64,000 bases of DNA from Bryobacterales bacterium (lineage in GTDB: Bacteria > Acidobacteriota > Terriglobia > Bryobacterales > UBA6623): contig JAJDZN010000069.1 of assembly GCA_022824585.1 (NCBI GenBank), positions 34,679 to 98,678 of the forward strand, written 5' to 3'. Positions 53,549 to 62,110 of this stretch are shown here, one piece after another; position 1 is the stretch's first letter; each line of letters opens with the position of its first letter. The notes beneath the pieces are model-generated. The model did not search any database. It worked only from the letters and a program-made list of their open reading frames with translations, and was not told where the DNA came from. The position numbers were made by a program, and so were the translations under genes.

Positions 53549-54802
53549 ATGATCAGAATTCCGTTTCTACTGTTCGCGTTGGCAAGCGTCAGCGCGGCAC
53601 AGTCGGGGCCGTGCTTGGCCGACGCATTCCTTGATGTCTCCGAAGCACCCGGGGCCGGACCCGCCTATCCGCGCCCTCGCGTCGAAGCTACATGCGAGGG
53701 CGATGAGTTGGTGGTCCGTGCCAACGGCATCCCGCACTACGAGTTCGTCCAAGTCACCCCGAACCCGCTCTTGGAGCGGAACAACGAGTTCCGCCTGCCC
53801 GCCAAGCCCACGCTGGCCGACAAGCCGACGCCGATTCCGCTGCTTGGCGGCATTGGCGTTGCGGTCAATGGCATCGTGATTTTCGGGCCGAATGAGGGCC
53901 CAGTGCCAGCCGAGGAACAATTCGGCGATCCGGTGTTCAACGCCATCATGGACGCCTGCATGGGCCACACGGCGCAGGAGTACCACTACCACGCCATGGT
54001 GCAGCGCTGCCTCAGTGTTGGCGCGAAGGATGGCGATCCCTCGCCCATCCTGGGATTTGGCTACGACGGCATTCCGATCCGTGGGCCCTGGGGTTGCATC
54101 GATGCCGATTGCAACGAGGTGGTGCGCCACCGCAGTAGCTGGGAAGAGGTCCGCGAGCCACATCAAGACTCTTGGGACGCCTACGAATACGTCGAGAAGG
54201 ACGGACCGGAGTACCTCGACGCCTGCAACGGACACGCCCATGATGACGGCGACTACCACTACCACGTGACCGAGACCTGGCCGTACATCCTTGGCTGCTA
54301 TTCAGGCACTCCGACGGGTGGACCCGTTCGCGGCCGCCGTCCGCCTGAAGTCAGCCAAGCGCGTCCCGGAGGGCCGGGCGAACGCCCGGGCCCGGGCCCT
54401 GCGGGGAACCGACCTCCGAGGGCCGGACAGCGTGGCGGGCCGCCACGGGGCGGGCCGCCACGCGACGAGCGCCCACGACCAGAAGAAGTTCAGGCGGTCG
54501 CCGCAGCCCTGAACAAGGATGTAGCCGAAGTTGCCAAGGCCCTGCGCGTGGAGCCCGGTGGCATCAAGCCGATCAACTTTGCCGCTTCCGCCCGGACGCT
54601 TGAGGTGGACACTGCCAAGCTGATCGAGTCTCTGGGAAGAACCCCGCCGCCGCCGCGCCAGCGACGGAACGTGGCCCCGCCCGGCGAGCCGGAGTGCTTC
54701 TTCCGCTGCGGCCAGAGCGAAGAGGACGCTGTCGGCTGTACCCTGACGCCCGAACACAAGGTACTGTGCTTCAGGCCGTGCGACGACAACAAGTGCGGCT
54801 GA
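53549..54802 (+). CDS. Secreted YHYH-domain protein (paralogue 1) with PGR-rich linker and Cys-rich C-terminus
   Basis: Signal peptide ending SAAQS; AIMDACMGHTAQEYHYHAMVQRC; CNGHAHDDGDYHYHVTETWPYILGCYSG; C-terminal CFFRCGQSEEDAVGCTLTPEHKVLCFRPCDDNKCG. Confidence 0.9.
   Translation: MIRIPFLLFALASVSAAQSGPCLADAFLDVSEAPGAGPAYPRPRVEATCEGDELVVRANGIPHYEFVQVTPNPLLERNNEFRLPAKPTLADKPTPIPLLGGIGVAVNGIVIFGPNEGPVPAEEQFGDPVFNAIMDACMGHTAQEYHYHAMVQRCLSVGAKDGDPSPILGFGYDGIPIRGPWGCIDADCNEVVRHRSSWEEVREPHQDSWDAYEYVEKDGPEYLDACNGHAHDDGDYHYHVTETWPYILGCYSGTPTGGPVRGRRPPEVSQARPGGPGERPGPGPAGNRPPRAGQRGGPPRGGPPRDERPRPEEVQAVAAALNKDVAEVAKALRVEPGGIKPINFAASARTLEVDTAKLIESLGRTPPPPRQRRNVAPPGEPECFFRCGQSEEDAVGCTLTPEHKVLCFRPCDDNKCG
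54223..54266 (+). repeat. 44-nt block identical to 56959-57002 (CNGHAHDDGDYHYH-encoding)
   Basis: ctgcaacggacacgcccatgatgacggcgactaccactaccacg present verbatim in both YHYH genes. Confidence 0.9.
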
Positions 54803-55935
54803 TCCGCCCGGCGCTGATGGCCTTGGCCATCATTGCCGGGATCGCGGCTTGGCCGCAGGAGCTGTTCCTGCCGCCGGTCGACCACTCCCAGCACCCCTTG
54901 ATCGAGGTCGACGAGGCCGAGCCGACACCGTCGATGCGCATCCACATGGACGCCGACTCGATGGACGGATTCAACATCTTCTTGGAAACGCAGAACTTCC
55001 GCTTCACGCCGCAGAGCGTGGACACGCTGCCAGTCGCCAACGAAGGCCATGCGCACCTGTACGTGAACGGCGAGAAAGTGGCTCGCATGTACTCGCCCTG
55101 GCACCACCTTTCCCGCAACCTGCTTCGCGACGGGATCAATCGCCTCGAGGTCGAGTTCAGCACCAACGACCATTCGGTCTGGGCTCTAGCCGGCGTGCCG
55201 ATCGGCGCGGACGTGCTGATTGATTCAAGCGTCACCGAAGGTGATCCGATCCTTCGCGAGGACGTCAGCTATACGCTGGACTGGGATTGGGGTGCGGCGA
55301 ACCCACACCCGGAAGGCGGCTGGACGGTTCGGACGGACCAGGGCTACTACGTGCAGGTTGAGAGCGGGCGGATCGTTACCCGCAATCTCGAACTGGTTCC
55401 CTGCCATATCGCTCCCCCGCCCGCACCGCTGGCATCGGTGCTGGGCTGGCTCGCGCCGCGCCGCGTGTTTGCCGGGCATAGCAGCTTGGTCCCCAACGAG
55501 TCGAAGATCACTGCTTCCTATGTCGAGGACCTGGCGGTGCCGCAAGAGACATTTCTCGAAAGCCGGGTTGTAACGGATCCGGACTACTGCCAGGCGCATT
55601 ACCTCGTGGCTAGGGAGCGAGGCTCCCCTCCGGGTGCATTAACACTCGATGTTTCAGGAACTTGGAGTCGATCTTCTAAGCAGTCGCGCAAGCCGTTCCA
55701 TATCAAGTCCGCCGCGGCTTACGGGGAGTTTAGGCCGTTGCGACTTTCTGACGGTGGCAAGCTGGGACGCCGCCTGATCGTGGGTGGGATCGACGCTAGA
55801 GTGCGTCGCTCTCTCGACACGCTGTTCGACGGAATCGACTTCGCGGACGGCACATCGGACTCCGATGGCATGCAGGTCTTGCGAAACTTGGTGGCGGGCA
55901 CGACAGTGCTAGTCAACGAGGCCGAAATCCCCTAG
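54793..55935 (+). CDS. Exported two-domain protein of unknown function with GHAHLYVNGEKVARMYSPWHHL motif
   Basis: Overlaps the end of the YHYH gene (GTG at 54793, or ATG at 54817); hydrophobic leader; N-terminal beta-rich domain, C-terminal domain with ELVPCHIAP and GTWSRSSKQSRKPFHIKS. Confidence 0.75.
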   Translation: MRLIRPALMALAIIAGIAAWPQELFLPPVDHSQHPLIEVDEAEPTPSMRIHMDADSMDGFNIFLETQNFRFTPQSVDTLPVANEGHAHLYVNGEKVARMYSPWHHLSRNLLRDGINRLEVEFSTNDHSVWALAGVPIGADVLIDSSVTEGDPILREDVSYTLDWDWGAANPHPEGGWTVRTDQGYYVQVESGRIVTRNLELVPCHIAPPPAPLASVLGWLAPRRVFAGHSSLVPNESKITASYVEDLAVPQETFLESRVVTDPDYCQAHYLVARERGSPPGALTLDVSGTWSRSSKQSRKPFHIKSAAAYGEFRPLRLSDGGKLGRRLIVGGIDARVRRSLDTLFDGIDFADGTSDSDGMQVLRNLVAGTTVLVNEAEIP

Positions 55936-56266
55936 TAACGCTGCGTCGTGGAGCGAGTCAACCATCGGTTCCGCAGTCCTCCGCCGTCGACCGATGAAGC
56001 CCTCGCGGGGTAGCTGCCAGCCAGGCGCCGGAGGGGTCGGGATCCGCCAAGTTCGCAGGCAGCAGTGAGTCGAGCGCGCTACCCTAGCGTGACACCGGAG
56101 CTACAACGGCTCGAGAATGGTAAAGAGGTTGCAATGGTCGCACCCCGTCACCGCTATTGGGGTCTGGCCTAGAAACGGTGGCGCAGTCCCCGTCGTCTTG
56201 CTGACTAGCTGGGTGGGAGTGTTTGATCGAGCGCTTTGCTCCGCCAGGCTTGGGAGGTTGAACAAG

Positions 56267-57427
56267 ATGCCCACGAGACCCCTCGTCTTCGCTGCCGTCG
56301 GGCTGTTCGGCCTGTTGCTGGCGTTGCCCGTGCCCGCAGCGAACAACCCCTGTCCCAGCGATGCATTCATGGATGTGAGCGATTCGCCGGGAGCGGGCGA
56401 GGGTTATCCGCGTCCGCGGCTAGAAGTCGAGTGCGACGGCGACGAACTCGTCGTGAGCAGCAACGCCATTCCGCACTACGAGTTTGTTCAGATCACGCCC
56501 AACCCGCTGGTGGAACTCAATCGCGACTACCGCATGCCGCTCAACCCGAAGCTGGCGGAGCAGCCGAGTCCGCTGCCGCTGCTTGGGCCGTCCGGCGTCG
56601 CGATCAACGGCATTCCGCTGTTCGGGCCGAACGAAGGCCCGGTACCCCCTCCGGGCTTCGGGGATCCGATCTACAACGCGATCATGGATTCGTGCATGGG
56701 ACACACGGCGCGACAGTACCACTACCACGCGCTGATCGAGACCTGTTTCGACATCGCGCGGGAGGCGAACGAGCCATCGCCAATCCTCGCGTTCGGGTGG
56801 GATGGTTTCCCGGTGTACGGTCCGTTCGGCTGCCGCGATGAGGAGTGCTCGGAAATCGTCGAATTCAAGAGCAGTTGGGAGCGACTGCGCGCGCCGCGGA
56901 TTGACGCATGGGACGCATATCGCTTCGTCCCGAAGGAGGGCGCCGAGTACTTGGACCGCTGCAACGGACACGCCCATGATGACGGCGACTACCACTACCA
57001 CGCCACGGCGACATGGCCGTACATCATGGGATGCTTCTCGGGCACGCCTTCTGCAGATGCAGGCAGGGAATCAGATCGCCAAACTAGCCGTCGCGATGGC
57101 GGCCGCGAAGGCCCGCCAGGGGACGACCCCCGACCGACCGTCGAGCAAGTGTCTCGTGCGGCGGCTGAGCTGGAAATTGACGAGGCGAAGCTCGCGGAAG
57201 CACTGCGCTTGACTGACGGTCGGGTCGCGCCGATGAACTACGTCGCAGCGGCGCGAGCTCTCGGTATTGAGGCACGCGATCTATATGAGGCGCTTGGGGT
57301 TACCGCACAGTTGCCTCCGCCCGGGGCTCGAGGCGGTCCGGGCGGGCGCAGGAGGGGCGCAGGGCCGCCGCGCCAAGGCGGGCGACCGAGAGGTCCGCGG
57401 CCACAGGGTCCCCGACCCAGACAGTGA
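56267..57427 (+). CDS. Secreted YHYH-domain protein (paralogue 2) with PGR-rich C-terminal tail
   Basis: MPTRPLVFAAVGLFGLLLALPVPAANN; AIMDSCMGHTARQYHYHALIETC; CNGHAHDDGDYHYHATATWPYIMGCFSG; tail GARGGPGGRRRGAGPPRQGGRPRGPRPQGPRPRQ. Confidence 0.9.
   Translation: MPTRPLVFAAVGLFGLLLALPVPAANNPCPSDAFMDVSDSPGAGEGYPRPRLEVECDGDELVVSSNAIPHYEFVQITPNPLVELNRDYRMPLNPKLAEQPSPLPLLGPSGVAINGIPLFGPNEGPVPPPGFGDPIYNAIMDSCMGHTARQYHYHALIETCFDIAREANEPSPILAFGWDGFPVYGPFGCRDEECSEIVEFKSSWERLRAPRIDAWDAYRFVPKEGAEYLDRCNGHAHDDGDYHYHATATWPYIMGCFSGTPSADAGRESDRQTSRRDGGREGPPGDDPRPTVEQVSRAAAELEIDEAKLAEALRLTDGRVAPMNYVAAARALGIEARDLYEALGVTAQLPPPGARGGPGGRRRGAGPPRQGGRPRGPRPQGPRPRQ
56959..57002 (+). repeat. 44-nt block identical to 54223-54266
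   Basis: Same 44-nt sequence, read directly. Confidence 0.9.
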
Positions 57428-57686: not shown

Positions 57687-58901
57687 ATGCCCTCGATCCG
57701 CCTAATTCTGTCCGCATGCCTAGTAATGGCAGTGTTTGCCGCATGCGGCGCAACCGATCAGTCCGCCGAGATGGGCGGCGACGACCCAGCCGTCCGTTCA
57801 CTCACCGCGGCCGAGTACTACGAGAAGATCCACGGTGCTTGGCTCGGCGAAGCAGTCGCGGGCGCGTTGGGCATGAGCGTTGAGGGCATGCACAAGAACG
57901 CGCTTGAGCCCTTCCTCACGGAGTTGGGACAGTGGCCGCTGACCGATTACATCAAGACACTGCCTCCCCAAAGGGACCCGAATCGCAAGCAATGGTACAC
58001 CGCGGATAACTGGGGCCCGACCGGATTCGGACCAGACGACGACTCCCTGTACCAAATCGCGAACCTGATGCTGCTCGAGGAGAAGGGTCCTGACATCACA
58101 AGCCAAGACATCGCGGACAAATGGCTGGCGTCGTTCTCTGTGTTCGAGGCTCAGAACTGCGGACGGGCGGTGAGGGTAGCCGAGAAGCTCCTGAAGGAGG
58201 GCATCAAGCCTCCCGAGTCGGGCAAGCACGACTTTGGCGAGTTCATGGGCGGGCAGATGAAGGGCGAGTTCTGGGGCTTCATGCTGCCCGGCAATCCCGC
58301 AGGGGCTGCAGAGTACGGGCGCATCGATGCCGAAGTCTCGTTCCATACCGACGGCGTCTACGGCGAGATGTTCATGGCTGCTCTCACCGCCGAGGCCTTC
58401 TTCGAGTCGGATCCCACGAAGCTGCTCGAGGCCGGCCTTGCGACCATCCCCGAGGATTGCGACTACGCCCGCTGCATCCGAGACGTGATGTCCTGGCACC
58501 AGCAGTGGCCCGATGATTGGGAAATGGCCCATGAGCAGATTGACGCCAAGTGGGCTCCGGAGGGAGACGAGAGGCAGCGCCGCGTGTTCCCCAACAACGC
58601 GGTCAACGCCCTAGCCCTGCTGTACGGCGAGGGTGACTTCGACAAGACGATCACGCTCGCCGTCATGGCCGGCTGGGACACCGATACGAACGCCGGCGAC
58701 GTCGGGCCGGTCATGGGGATCATCCTGGGGCCCGGAGCGATCGCCGAGAGGTGGACCGCGCCCATCGCGAACATCCTTCGCTCCGACGTCAAGGGCGCGG
58801 AGGAGTGGAAGATCGATGAACTGGCGCGGCGGACGGCCGACATGGGCATGCGAATGACCGAGGCAAAGTCCTCCGGGCTTGTTGAGATTGTGAACGAGTA
58901 G
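57687..58901 (+). CDS. ADP-ribosylglycohydrolase (DraG) family lipoprotein
   Basis: MPSIRLILSACLVMAVFAACGATDQS lipobox; KIHGAWLGEAVAGALGMSVEG; GPDDDSLYQIANL; MAGWDTDTNAGDVGPVMG. Confidence 0.9.
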   Translation: MPSIRLILSACLVMAVFAACGATDQSAEMGGDDPAVRSLTAAEYYEKIHGAWLGEAVAGALGMSVEGMHKNALEPFLTELGQWPLTDYIKTLPPQRDPNRKQWYTADNWGPTGFGPDDDSLYQIANLMLLEEKGPDITSQDIADKWLASFSVFEAQNCGRAVRVAEKLLKEGIKPPESGKHDFGEFMGGQMKGEFWGFMLPGNPAGAAEYGRIDAEVSFHTDGVYGEMFMAALTAEAFFESDPTKLLEAGLATIPEDCDYARCIRDVMSWHQQWPDDWEMAHEQIDAKWAPEGDERQRRVFPNNAVNALALLYGEGDFDKTITLAVMAGWDTDTNAGDVGPVMGIILGPGAIAERWTAPIANILRSDVKGAEEWKIDELARRTADMGMRMTEAKSSGLVEIVNE

Positions 58902-59040
58902 AGATCCTGCTGTCTGTCCAGCTGCGCAGGCAACACGTGGCTTATTTGCACGAGCTGCGCAGTTGCCAGCGGAGCCGGTGGCCTTCGCAGCTCGGCTTGG
59001 CCCAGGAATCAACGTGAGATCCAACTGCGGCACCCTGACA

Positions 59041-60459
59041 ATGCGGCGGCGAGACCTTTTCTCGCTAGGGGCAGCCGCAGCCTTCGCCGGTTGCGGGCAG
59101 CCCGCTGCGTCTCGTCCCAATATCTTGTTCGCGATCTCCGACGACCAATCCTTCGCTCATACCGGTGCGTCCGGCGACCCGGTTGTCCGCACTCCTGCGT
59201 TTGACCGCATTTCCGCCGAGGGTGTCCGGTTCGAACACGCATTCTGCAACTCGCCGTCATGCACTCCATCCAGGGGAGCCATCCTGACGGGCCAAGAGTG
59301 CTACCGCCTCGAAGAGGGCGTCAACTTGTGGAGTTCCCTGCCCGCCAAGTTCGTGACGTACCCCGACCTGCTCGAAGCGGCGGGGTACCACATCGGCTTC
59401 ACCCGCAAAGGCTGGTCGCCCGGGAGCCTCGAAGCCGGGGGTCGATCTCGCAATCCCGCAGGCCCGAGGTACGACGACTTCCAGACCTTCTACGAAGCCA
59501 ACCCTCCCGGAGCCCCGTTCTGTTTTTGGTTCGGCAGCAGCGACCCGCATCGCGCCTACGAGAAGGGTTCGGGTGTCGCCAGCGGGCTGCGCCCCGAGGA
59601 TGTGGCGGTGCCTCCGTTTCTTCCCGACGACCCGGAGGTTCGCAGCGACATTCTCGACTACTTCTTCGAAATCGAGCGCTTCGACCGGGAACTTGGCGAG
59701 ATCCTTTCGTACTTGGAGGAGCGAGGCCAGCTTGAGAACACCATCGTCATCGTCACCAGCGACAATGGCATGCCGTTTCCGCGTGCCAAGGCGGACCTAT
59801 ACGACTACGGGGCGCGCGTGCCGCTTGCCATGCGGTGGCCAGAGAGTGTCCCCGGGGGACGAGTGGTCACCGACTTTGCCAGCTTGGTCGACATAGCCCC
59901 AACCATCCTTGAGGCTGCGGGTGTCGAGATTCCGGAAGATATGACGGGGCGCAGCTTGCTGGACTTGCTGAAGTCTGGGGAAGACGGGCGCGTCGACTCC
60001 ACTCGTGACCACGTGATCTTGGCCCGCGAGCGCCACACTCCGTGGCGTGAAGGAAGGGTCGGATACCCGATGCGGGCGATCCGGACGGATCAATTCCTCT
60101 ACATCCGGAACATCGAGCCCGACCGCTGGCCCGCGGGTGACCCTCCAATCCTGGGGGAAGTAGATCCATCGCCCACGAAGGACTTGATGCGGGCCCGCAA
60201 GGACGACCCAGACTTCCGGCGCTACTACGAGGCGGCATTCTCCAAGCGACCCGGCGAAGAACTCTATGAGCTGGGCCTTGATCCCGGGCAGATGAAGAAC
60301 GTCGCCGACGAAGCCGCGCACGCGGAGATCAAGAGCGCCTTGGCAGCAAAGCTAGACCAACACCTCCTGGCAACGTCTGATCCCCGAGCCCTCGGGCACC
60401 CGCCTACGTGGGAATCGGATCCGCACCATGGCAGGCTCACTCTGGAACAGCGCCACTAA
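59041..60459 (+). CDS. Exported (Tat/lipoprotein-like) sulfatase, heparan-N-sulfatase-like
   Basis: MRRRDLFSLGAAAAFAGCGQPAAS; NILFAISDDQSFAHTGASGDPVVRTPAFDRISAEGVRF; NSPSCTPSRGAILTGQECYRLEEG. Confidence 0.94.
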   Translation: MRRRDLFSLGAAAAFAGCGQPAASRPNILFAISDDQSFAHTGASGDPVVRTPAFDRISAEGVRFEHAFCNSPSCTPSRGAILTGQECYRLEEGVNLWSSLPAKFVTYPDLLEAAGYHIGFTRKGWSPGSLEAGGRSRNPAGPRYDDFQTFYEANPPGAPFCFWFGSSDPHRAYEKGSGVASGLRPEDVAVPPFLPDDPEVRSDILDYFFEIERFDRELGEILSYLEERGQLENTIVIVTSDNGMPFPRAKADLYDYGARVPLAMRWPESVPGGRVVTDFASLVDIAPTILEAAGVEIPEDMTGRSLLDLLKSGEDGRVDSTRDHVILARERHTPWREGRVGYPMRAIRTDQFLYIRNIEPDRWPAGDPPILGEVDPSPTKDLMRARKDDPDFRRYYEAAFSKRPGEELYELGLDPGQMKNVADEAAHAEIKSALAAKLDQHLLATSDPRALGHPPTWESDPHHGRLTLEQRH

Positions 60460-60706
60460 GGCACCAAGCCCGAGTCTTGGAATGGCGGATCGCGGATCGC
60501 CCAGCGGGCAAGCTCCTTGACCAAGCGCAAGCCGCGGCCGTGTTGCGTAGCCCTACGGGCTAATGCTGCCATCGGCTACACTTGAACCGGCCATTTTCCT
60601 CATCTGGCAACAAGCTCTCGGGCTCGGTGGCTTGCTTCGAGACCGCCGCCACTGGCAGCAGGGTTGCCGGTGCCGGGAAGACCGGCTGTATTCGGAGTTA
60701 AGCGAT

Positions 60707-62110
60707 ATGACCCGCCGCATTGTCCACTTGGCCGCACTCGCCTGCGGCGTTTTCCTTGCCGTGTCGCCCCTATCGGCTCAAGGCGGAGGAGACAGAGCAG
60801 AACGGGTCAAACCCACCGTCGCTGACTTCTCGTATGGAGACCATGAGCGGCACGTGTTGGACTTCTACCAAGCTGAGTCGTCCGACCCCACACCGTTGGT
60901 GCTCCATATCCACGGCGGAGGCTTCACCCGAGGTAACAAGGGTTCCGTAAACCAAGCAACCCTGAAGGCACTGTTGGCTGCCGGGATCTCGGTCGCCGCG
61001 ATCAACTATCGGCTCGCTGGCCAAGTGCCGCTGCCAGCAGCCCACGCAGACGCCCAACGAGCCGTGCAGACGCTGCGGGCGAAAGCTGCGGAATGGAATA
61101 TCGACAAGGATCAAGTCGGTGCGTTCGGAGGATCAGCCGGGGCTCAGCTATGCATGTGGCTGGCCTACAGCGACGACCATGCCGATCCATCGAGCAGCGA
61201 TCCCATCGCACGCGAGTCGACCCGGCTGGCATACGTTGCGCCGCTCAACGGCCAGAGCACGAACGACTTCGACTGGTGGCTGGAGAACCTCCCGGGCTAC
61301 GACGAGCTGCATCGCGACCCGGCGGAGATCTTCGGCACATCCGACAAGGGCAAACAGGCAGCTATCGCCGCGAAAATCTCGGCAATCAAGCTGGTGTCCG
61401 CCGACGATCCTCCGACGTTCATGCGCTATGGGATGGCTCCTGGGGATCCAGTTCCCGAAGGAGATCGCGCTCAAGGTTGGAAAGTCCACCATGTCAACTT
61501 CGGGCTGGCGCTGAAGGCAAAGCTCGATGCGCTCGGTGTCGAGAACTTTCTGCAGTACCCGGGTGCGGAATCGGCCTATGCAACCCCGGAGGACTTCTTC
61601 ATCGGCAAGTTCGGCAAGTCGGAGATCCGGCACCTTACGCACGATGAGCTGTCCGACTATCACCTCGAGCTCGTGAAGCTGTTGGAGAAGAACCCGAACC
61701 AGACCGGCGAAGTCTACCGCCAGGGCGTCTCCGGAGGGGTCGGCGGCTGGACTCCCTTGCCAGAAGCGGCAGACCGCAATCACTATTTGTCGATCCTGCA
61801 TCGTGGCGGCAACAGCTGGGCGGAGTCGCACGACCAGAAGGCCGACTTCTACATCATGCTCGAGGGATCCGGCACGCTGCTGCTGGGGGGCAAGATGGTG
61901 GACGCGATTCAAGCCGAGGGGCGCCCCGGCGAGTGGCGGGCACCGCGCCTCGAGAATCCGCGCCGCATCGAGGCTCGCAAGGGCGATCTCATCAACATCC
62001 CCGTGAAAACGCCCCATCAATGGGATCTCACGGAGGGCGAGTCCGTGACCTATGTGATCCTCAAGGTCGTCGAGCGTGGCGAGAACATTCGGGACGCTCC
62101 TCCGAATTGA
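60707..62110 (+). CDS. Secreted alpha/beta hydrolase (esterase) fused to a C-terminal cupin
   Basis: Signal peptide; PLVLHIHGGGFTRGNKGSVNQ; GAFGGSAGAQLCMWLAY; C-terminal KADFYIMLEGSGTLLLGGKM...RKGDLINIPVKTPHQWDL cupin. Confidence 0.88.
   Translation: MTRRIVHLAALACGVFLAVSPLSAQGGGDRAERVKPTVADFSYGDHERHVLDFYQAESSDPTPLVLHIHGGGFTRGNKGSVNQATLKALLAAGISVAAINYRLAGQVPLPAAHADAQRAVQTLRAKAAEWNIDKDQVGAFGGSAGAQLCMWLAYSDDHADPSSSDPIARESTRLAYVAPLNGQSTNDFDWWLENLPGYDELHRDPAEIFGTSDKGKQAAIAAKISAIKLVSADDPPTFMRYGMAPGDPVPEGDRAQGWKVHHVNFGLALKAKLDALGVENFLQYPGAESAYATPEDFFIGKFGKSEIRHLTHDELSDYHLELVKLLEKNPNQTGEVYRQGVSGGVGGWTPLPEAADRNHYLSILHRGGNSWAESHDQKADFYIMLEGSGTLLLGGKMVDAIQAEGRPGEWRAPRLENPRRIEARKGDLINIPVKTPHQWDLTEGESVTYVILKVVERGENIRDAPPN

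Follow-up and report, generated by a model that had tools for sequence, protein, structure and literature searches.

The window analysed here is a 64,000-nucleotide stretch of a Bryobacterales genome (assembly of 6.18 Mb in 341 contigs). It contains three consecutive open reading frames on the plus strand, at the positions given by an earlier sequence-only reading (Table 1), in which two genes for YHYH proteins flank a middle gene. A profile search for the YHYH domain (PF14240, Pfam cut-off 25 bits) confirmed both outer genes, and both products, which are 54% identical to each other, carry the two His sites CMGHT..YHYHA and CNGHAHDDGDYHYH. The middle protein matched no family over the cut-off in Pfam or NCBIfam; its domain comprising residues ~30-145 is named GHAH here. 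Comparison with four relatives indicates purifying selection on each of the three genes (dN/dS 0.08-0.21).

Table 1. Features of the YHYH locus, numbered from the first nucleotide of the window.
Feature	Position	Strand	Evidence
YHYH1, exported YHYH protein (PF14240), 417 aa	53549..54802	+	Pfam 99.5 bits; dN/dS 0.09-0.17
First His site CMGHTAQEYHYH of YHYH1, residues 137-148	53957..53992	+	Invariant residues, 29 sequences
Second His site CNGHAHDDGDYHYH of YHYH1, residues 226-239	54224..54265	+	Conservation, 29 sequences
Middle gene (380 aa, starting at GTG) with a hydrophobic N-terminal segment, the GHAH domain and a C-terminal extension	54793..55935	+	
GHAH domain, residues ~30-146	54880..55230	+	60-sequence alignment; beta-rich in model
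GHAH motif, residues 85-88	55045..55056	+	H86 and H88 in 60/60
C-terminal extension of middle protein, Bryobacterales-specific	55240..55935	+	10-sequence alignment
YHYH2, second exported YHYH paralogue	56267..57427	+	Pfam 93.1 bits; start from relatives

The sequence-only reading had further proposed that the stop codon of YHYH1 overlaps the start of the middle gene and that the genes form one unit of exported proteins. Indeed, the YHYH1 stop codon (54800-54802) lies within a 10-nucleotide overlap with the middle gene, and a relative (L022) has an ATG at the position homologous to the GTG at 54793. An operon-like unit is supported, as is export of the proteins, for which putative signal peptides were recognised by inspection. 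The YHYH2 reading frame is open from 56117; a start near 56267 is more likely, because the relatives begin with a homologous M(NK)MP signal peptide.

Two sulfatase genes (PF00884; 51745-53295 on the minus strand and 58963-60459 on the plus strand) flank the locus and recur nearby in related Bryobacterales. Between YHYH2 and the second of these, positions 57687-58901 (plus strand) encode an exported protein, possibly a lipoprotein, of the ADP-ribosylglycohydrolase family (PF03747, 146 bits), and a gene of this kind (cluster c17) is found downstream in five Bryobacterales loci. Positions 60563-62110 (plus strand) encode a BD-FAE/Abhydrolase esterase whose C-terminal part includes a cupin-like stretch, the cupin match being under the cut-off. 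These flanking genes are common to several Bryobacterales and do not recur beside the YHYH-GHAH pair outside them, and they were therefore treated as local context.

In an alignment of 29 sequences, the YHYH motif and the conserved His and Asp residues place the window proteins within the YHYH family. At the first site D135, C137, H140, H146, H148 and C154 are invariant; at the second site D224 and H239 are invariant, and C226, H229, H237 and C250 are retained in at least 90% of the sequences. The three proteins encoded at the locus had been described as His-rich, which does not apply to their overall composition (2.6%, 3.4% and 2.1% His); what distinguishes their His residues is clustering and conservation. 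The pair of sites in the YHYH protein looks internally duplicated, with a local score of 61 where 1000 shuffles reached at most 50. YHYH1 ends in a four-helix region and a Cys-containing tail, and the C-terminal helical region is common to the window and Rhodobacterales versions. With a mean pLDDT of 59, the predicted YHYH structure is of low quality, and as expected a fold search against the PDB gave nothing usable; a YHYH protein of a cyanophage was the sole significant match by fold. Elsewhere in the genome, a third YHYH gene (L003, G000:C144:18445-18732) covers roughly the first half of the profile and no more.

For the YHYH domain, a zinc site of three His and one Asp has been predicted by Iyer and colleagues, together with a role as tail-associated metal-dependent hydrolase in phage (PMC7824862), and the literature on PF14240 also places the domain in phage baseplate and tail proteins. 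The idea of a metal in YHYH proteins thus has a precedent, and the earlier description of the system as undescribed does not hold for its YHYH part; what appears to be new is GHAH and the fact that it is paired with YHYH. The window proteins share the conserved His/Asp sites and the Cys residues of the family. In contrast to the phage proteins, they are cellular and exported, possess the C-terminal helical region and are paired with GHAH instead of being fused to tail proteins.

The published prediction leads to the main rival to the metal-handling module proposed below, namely that YHYH uses zinc to hydrolyse a polymer of the cell wall or matrix and that GHAH serves as a substrate-binding or assembly beta-sandwich in a unit for polymer degradation. 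The cyanophage fold match, the sulfatases, esterase and ADP-ribosylglycohydrolase flanking the window locus, and weak galactose-binding-domain matches of GHAH would be in line with such an activity. However, the latter matches fall below the cut-off for the window protein, outside Bryobacterales neither the sulfatases nor the other flanking enzymes are retained next to the pair, and GHAH recurs with metal transporters and PCu(A)C proteins rather than with carbohydrate enzymes. We consider this explanation unlikely.

For the middle protein, no PDB chain was found by sequence and no PDB fold match was convincing. Its residues 83-106 read NEGHAHLYVNGEKVARMYSPWHHL. Among 60 aligned GHAH sequences H86, H88 and H127 are present in all, H34 in 59, W103 in 56 and H105 in 55, and the alignment likewise shows conserved aromatic and Gly residues. 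The AlphaFold2 model of the middle protein is beta-rich and confident (pLDDT 85.6, pTM 0.76). It places H86 and H88 on one strand (residues 84-91), and given the alternation of residues along a strand, both should face the same side. The beta-rich model and the additional conservation of aromatic and Gly residues would also be compatible with invariant residues that are structural, the His residues included, and with GHAH and YHYH being co-transcribed envelope proteins devoid of any role in metal handling. This reading is very improbable in view of the separate associations of GHAH with copper, zinc and cobalt proteins in several lineages.

The C-terminal extension of the middle protein (residues ~150-380), which was seen only in Bryobacterales among the sequences found here, has its own invariant residues (C204, H205, H229, C266 and H269 in 10 sequences). 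Kinship of the extension with MbnP was considered and rejected: Foldseek gave E values of 0.03-0.06, yet hhalign returned a probability of 0.1, in a weak test with three MbnP sequences and shallow alignments. The middle protein as a whole shows weak Foldseek similarity to MbnP (7l6g), and PF20243 gave no Pfam match in the middle protein and none in the whole genome at E up to 1. A match of the extension on a Methylocalor plasmid (E 0.7) was dropped as likely due to chance, and two weak genome matches (L129 and L130), whose surrounding proteins look unrelated, are likely chance hits as well.

A search with the middle protein as single query gave no relative among 296 further genomes of its phylum. 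The assembly is nearest to metagenome-derived Bryobacterales genomes (L014 and L015), in which the first 153 residues of this protein are matched at 97% identity. GHAH was first found on plasmids of Roseobacteraceae and Stappiaceae, and in contigs representing one genome per species it is present at 441 loci, ranging from marine Roseobacters and SAR11-type bacteria to cyanobacteria, Bacillota and Patescibacteria. A search of the GenBank phage set yielded no phage-borne GHAH.

The sequence-only reading had presented YHYH, middle protein and YHYH as a trio. The middle gene is conserved beside YHYH elsewhere: in 23 of the best 80 of the 441 loci, from Acidobacteriota, Alpha- and Gammaproteobacteria, YHYH adjoins GHAH, and in 9 of 10 Bryobacterales loci and 14 loci of Proteobacteria (Rhodobacterales, Pseudoalteromonas and Shewanella) it lies directly upstream on the same strand, as it does in the window. 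The conserved unit is the pair of YHYH followed by GHAH; a second YHYH gene is found beside GHAH in only some Bryobacterales, and outside this group no further gene cluster recurs beside the pair. Where the start codon is fixed by homology, the YHYH-GHAH junction ranges from -10 to +12 nucleotides; larger overlaps, such as those at L018, L021 and L030, are an artefact of reading from the earliest start codon in the open reading frame. At one locus (L039) YHYH is split over two open reading frames.

Since similarity to the window protein determined the ranking of the 80 loci, they favour its branch. A less biased sample was provided by 249 evenly drawn genomes of the family of Jannaschia, in which YHYH is present in 42, GHAH in 61 and both in 20 genomes. 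The two are adjacent in 5 of these 20 (G310, G311, G317, G318 and G352), a raw count, not set against chance, that was obtained by comparing two match tables. Most GHAH genes have no adjoining YHYH, and most YHYH genes occur without GHAH, which counts against the module proposed below. A single origin of the YHYH-linked GHAH proteins, with L071 left out, was not rejected (AU p 0.54), in a tree that rests on 103 columns and leaves many forks open.

Which proteins accompany GHAH elsewhere bears on its function. PCu(A)C domains are fused to it N-terminally (L092, 141.7 bits) or C-terminally (L090, 106.7 bits) or encoded next to it (L078, 130.8 bits). A PCu(A)C-like part precedes GHAH in further Rhodobacteraceae open reading frames (L186-L205); eight such fusions were scanned, of which five scored over and three under the PF04314 cut-off. 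In Bacillota (Thermoactinomycetaceae; L045 and L087) GHAH is fused to a ZIP zinc transporter, other units have the order CbtB-CbtA-GHAH-DUF1636 with the cobalt transporters CbtA/CbtB, and in cyanobacteria GHAH lies beside DsbD_2+ferric reductase proteins. These partners, together with the conserved His residues, back the metal role that had been suggested as an interpretation of the locus.

The leaders of GHAH proteins differ between branches: in a purely descriptive comparison of 60-residue leaders, whose counts take in some of the membrane segment and draw partly on related sequences, YHYH-linked proteobacterial proteins contain 10.8% Met, Cbt-linked proteins 1.9% Met and 10.3% His, and Bryobacterales proteins 0.9% Met, with no Met enrichment and one conserved His. 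Met- and His-rich leaders, as well as a plasmid GHAH gene a few kb from merA, would suit a pair that sequesters or buffers excess extracytoplasmic metal for tolerance, without any hand-off from chaperone to client. We regard this as improbable, as fusions to an importer family (ZIP) and an assembly chaperone (PCu(A)C) suit supply better than detoxification and the pair has no recurrent additional genes beside it outside Bryobacterales.

Among known systems, the PCu(A)C copper chaperone (PF04314), a small exported beta domain repeatedly fused or adjacent to GHAH, offers a candidate for how GHAH works. The candidate ligands of GHAH are His residues, whereas a Met3-His set has been described in PCuAC (PMC7558416). 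PF04314 did not match the middle protein at E up to 1 and is absent from the 25 families, out of 29, shown for the 60 GHAH sequences. GHAH also resembles DUF1775/YcnI, a functionally unassigned domain that is in part found fused to PCuAC and later proved to bind Cu(II) (PMC8424229); it differs in having several conserved His residues, whereas YcnI has one near-invariant His. Neither DUF1775/YcnI nor CopC gave a Pfam match in the middle protein at E up to 1. With cobalt uptake by CbtA/CbtB and DUF1636 it shares a recurrent neighbourhood, but the window locus is without a transporter.

We tentatively favour, at a little short of an even chance, that the locus encodes a secreted metal-handling module in which a metallochaperone-like GHAH protein serves a YHYH metalloprotein. 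The pair would probably handle metal outside the cell. As a small extracytoplasmic beta-sandwich, GHAH would hold a transition metal on a His cluster formed by H34, H86, H88, H127 and usually H105, and would pass it to the neighbouring gene's YHYH product or keep it on that protein. The client, YHYH, would be a metalloprotein that arose by internal duplication, probably contains disulfide bonds and has two sites of the form DxCxGH...YHYH...C. Copper comes first among the candidate metals and would be the likeliest one in the YHYH-linked branch, as a possible and still rather doubtful choice. The gene pair, the residue conservation, the fusions and neighbours and the Met-rich leaders are observations, from which the binding, identity and transfer of a metal and the role of a loaded YHYH protein are inferred. 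The partner set of GHAH, however, spans copper, zinc and cobalt, which speaks against the favoured module and makes the metal in the window organism only a candidate; the Bryobacterales leaders, with no Met enrichment, speak against it as well.

A broader and more speculative proposal is that GHAH represents an undescribed class of extracytoplasmic metallochaperones, which might serve several metals by modular pairing with PCu(A)C, ZIP or CbtA/CbtB and have YHYH proteins as its clients. If so, this would be the first cellular function for the YHYH family. The proposal provides a joint testable hypothesis for two families without experimental function, and the pairing with GHAH offers a route to finding which ligand YHYH proteins have and what activity they possess. 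Given the wide taxonomic range of GHAH, a metal role would also bear on trace-metal acquisition in many environments.

Two other gene arrangements were observed. In Loktanella (L007, L012 and L062) a gene row reads YHYH-PEBP-second exported protein-YHYH-GHAH, and in Fonsibacter and related alphaproteobacterial genomes (L056, L058, L060, L061, L063, L079 and L080) GHAH is a conserved stand-alone gene.
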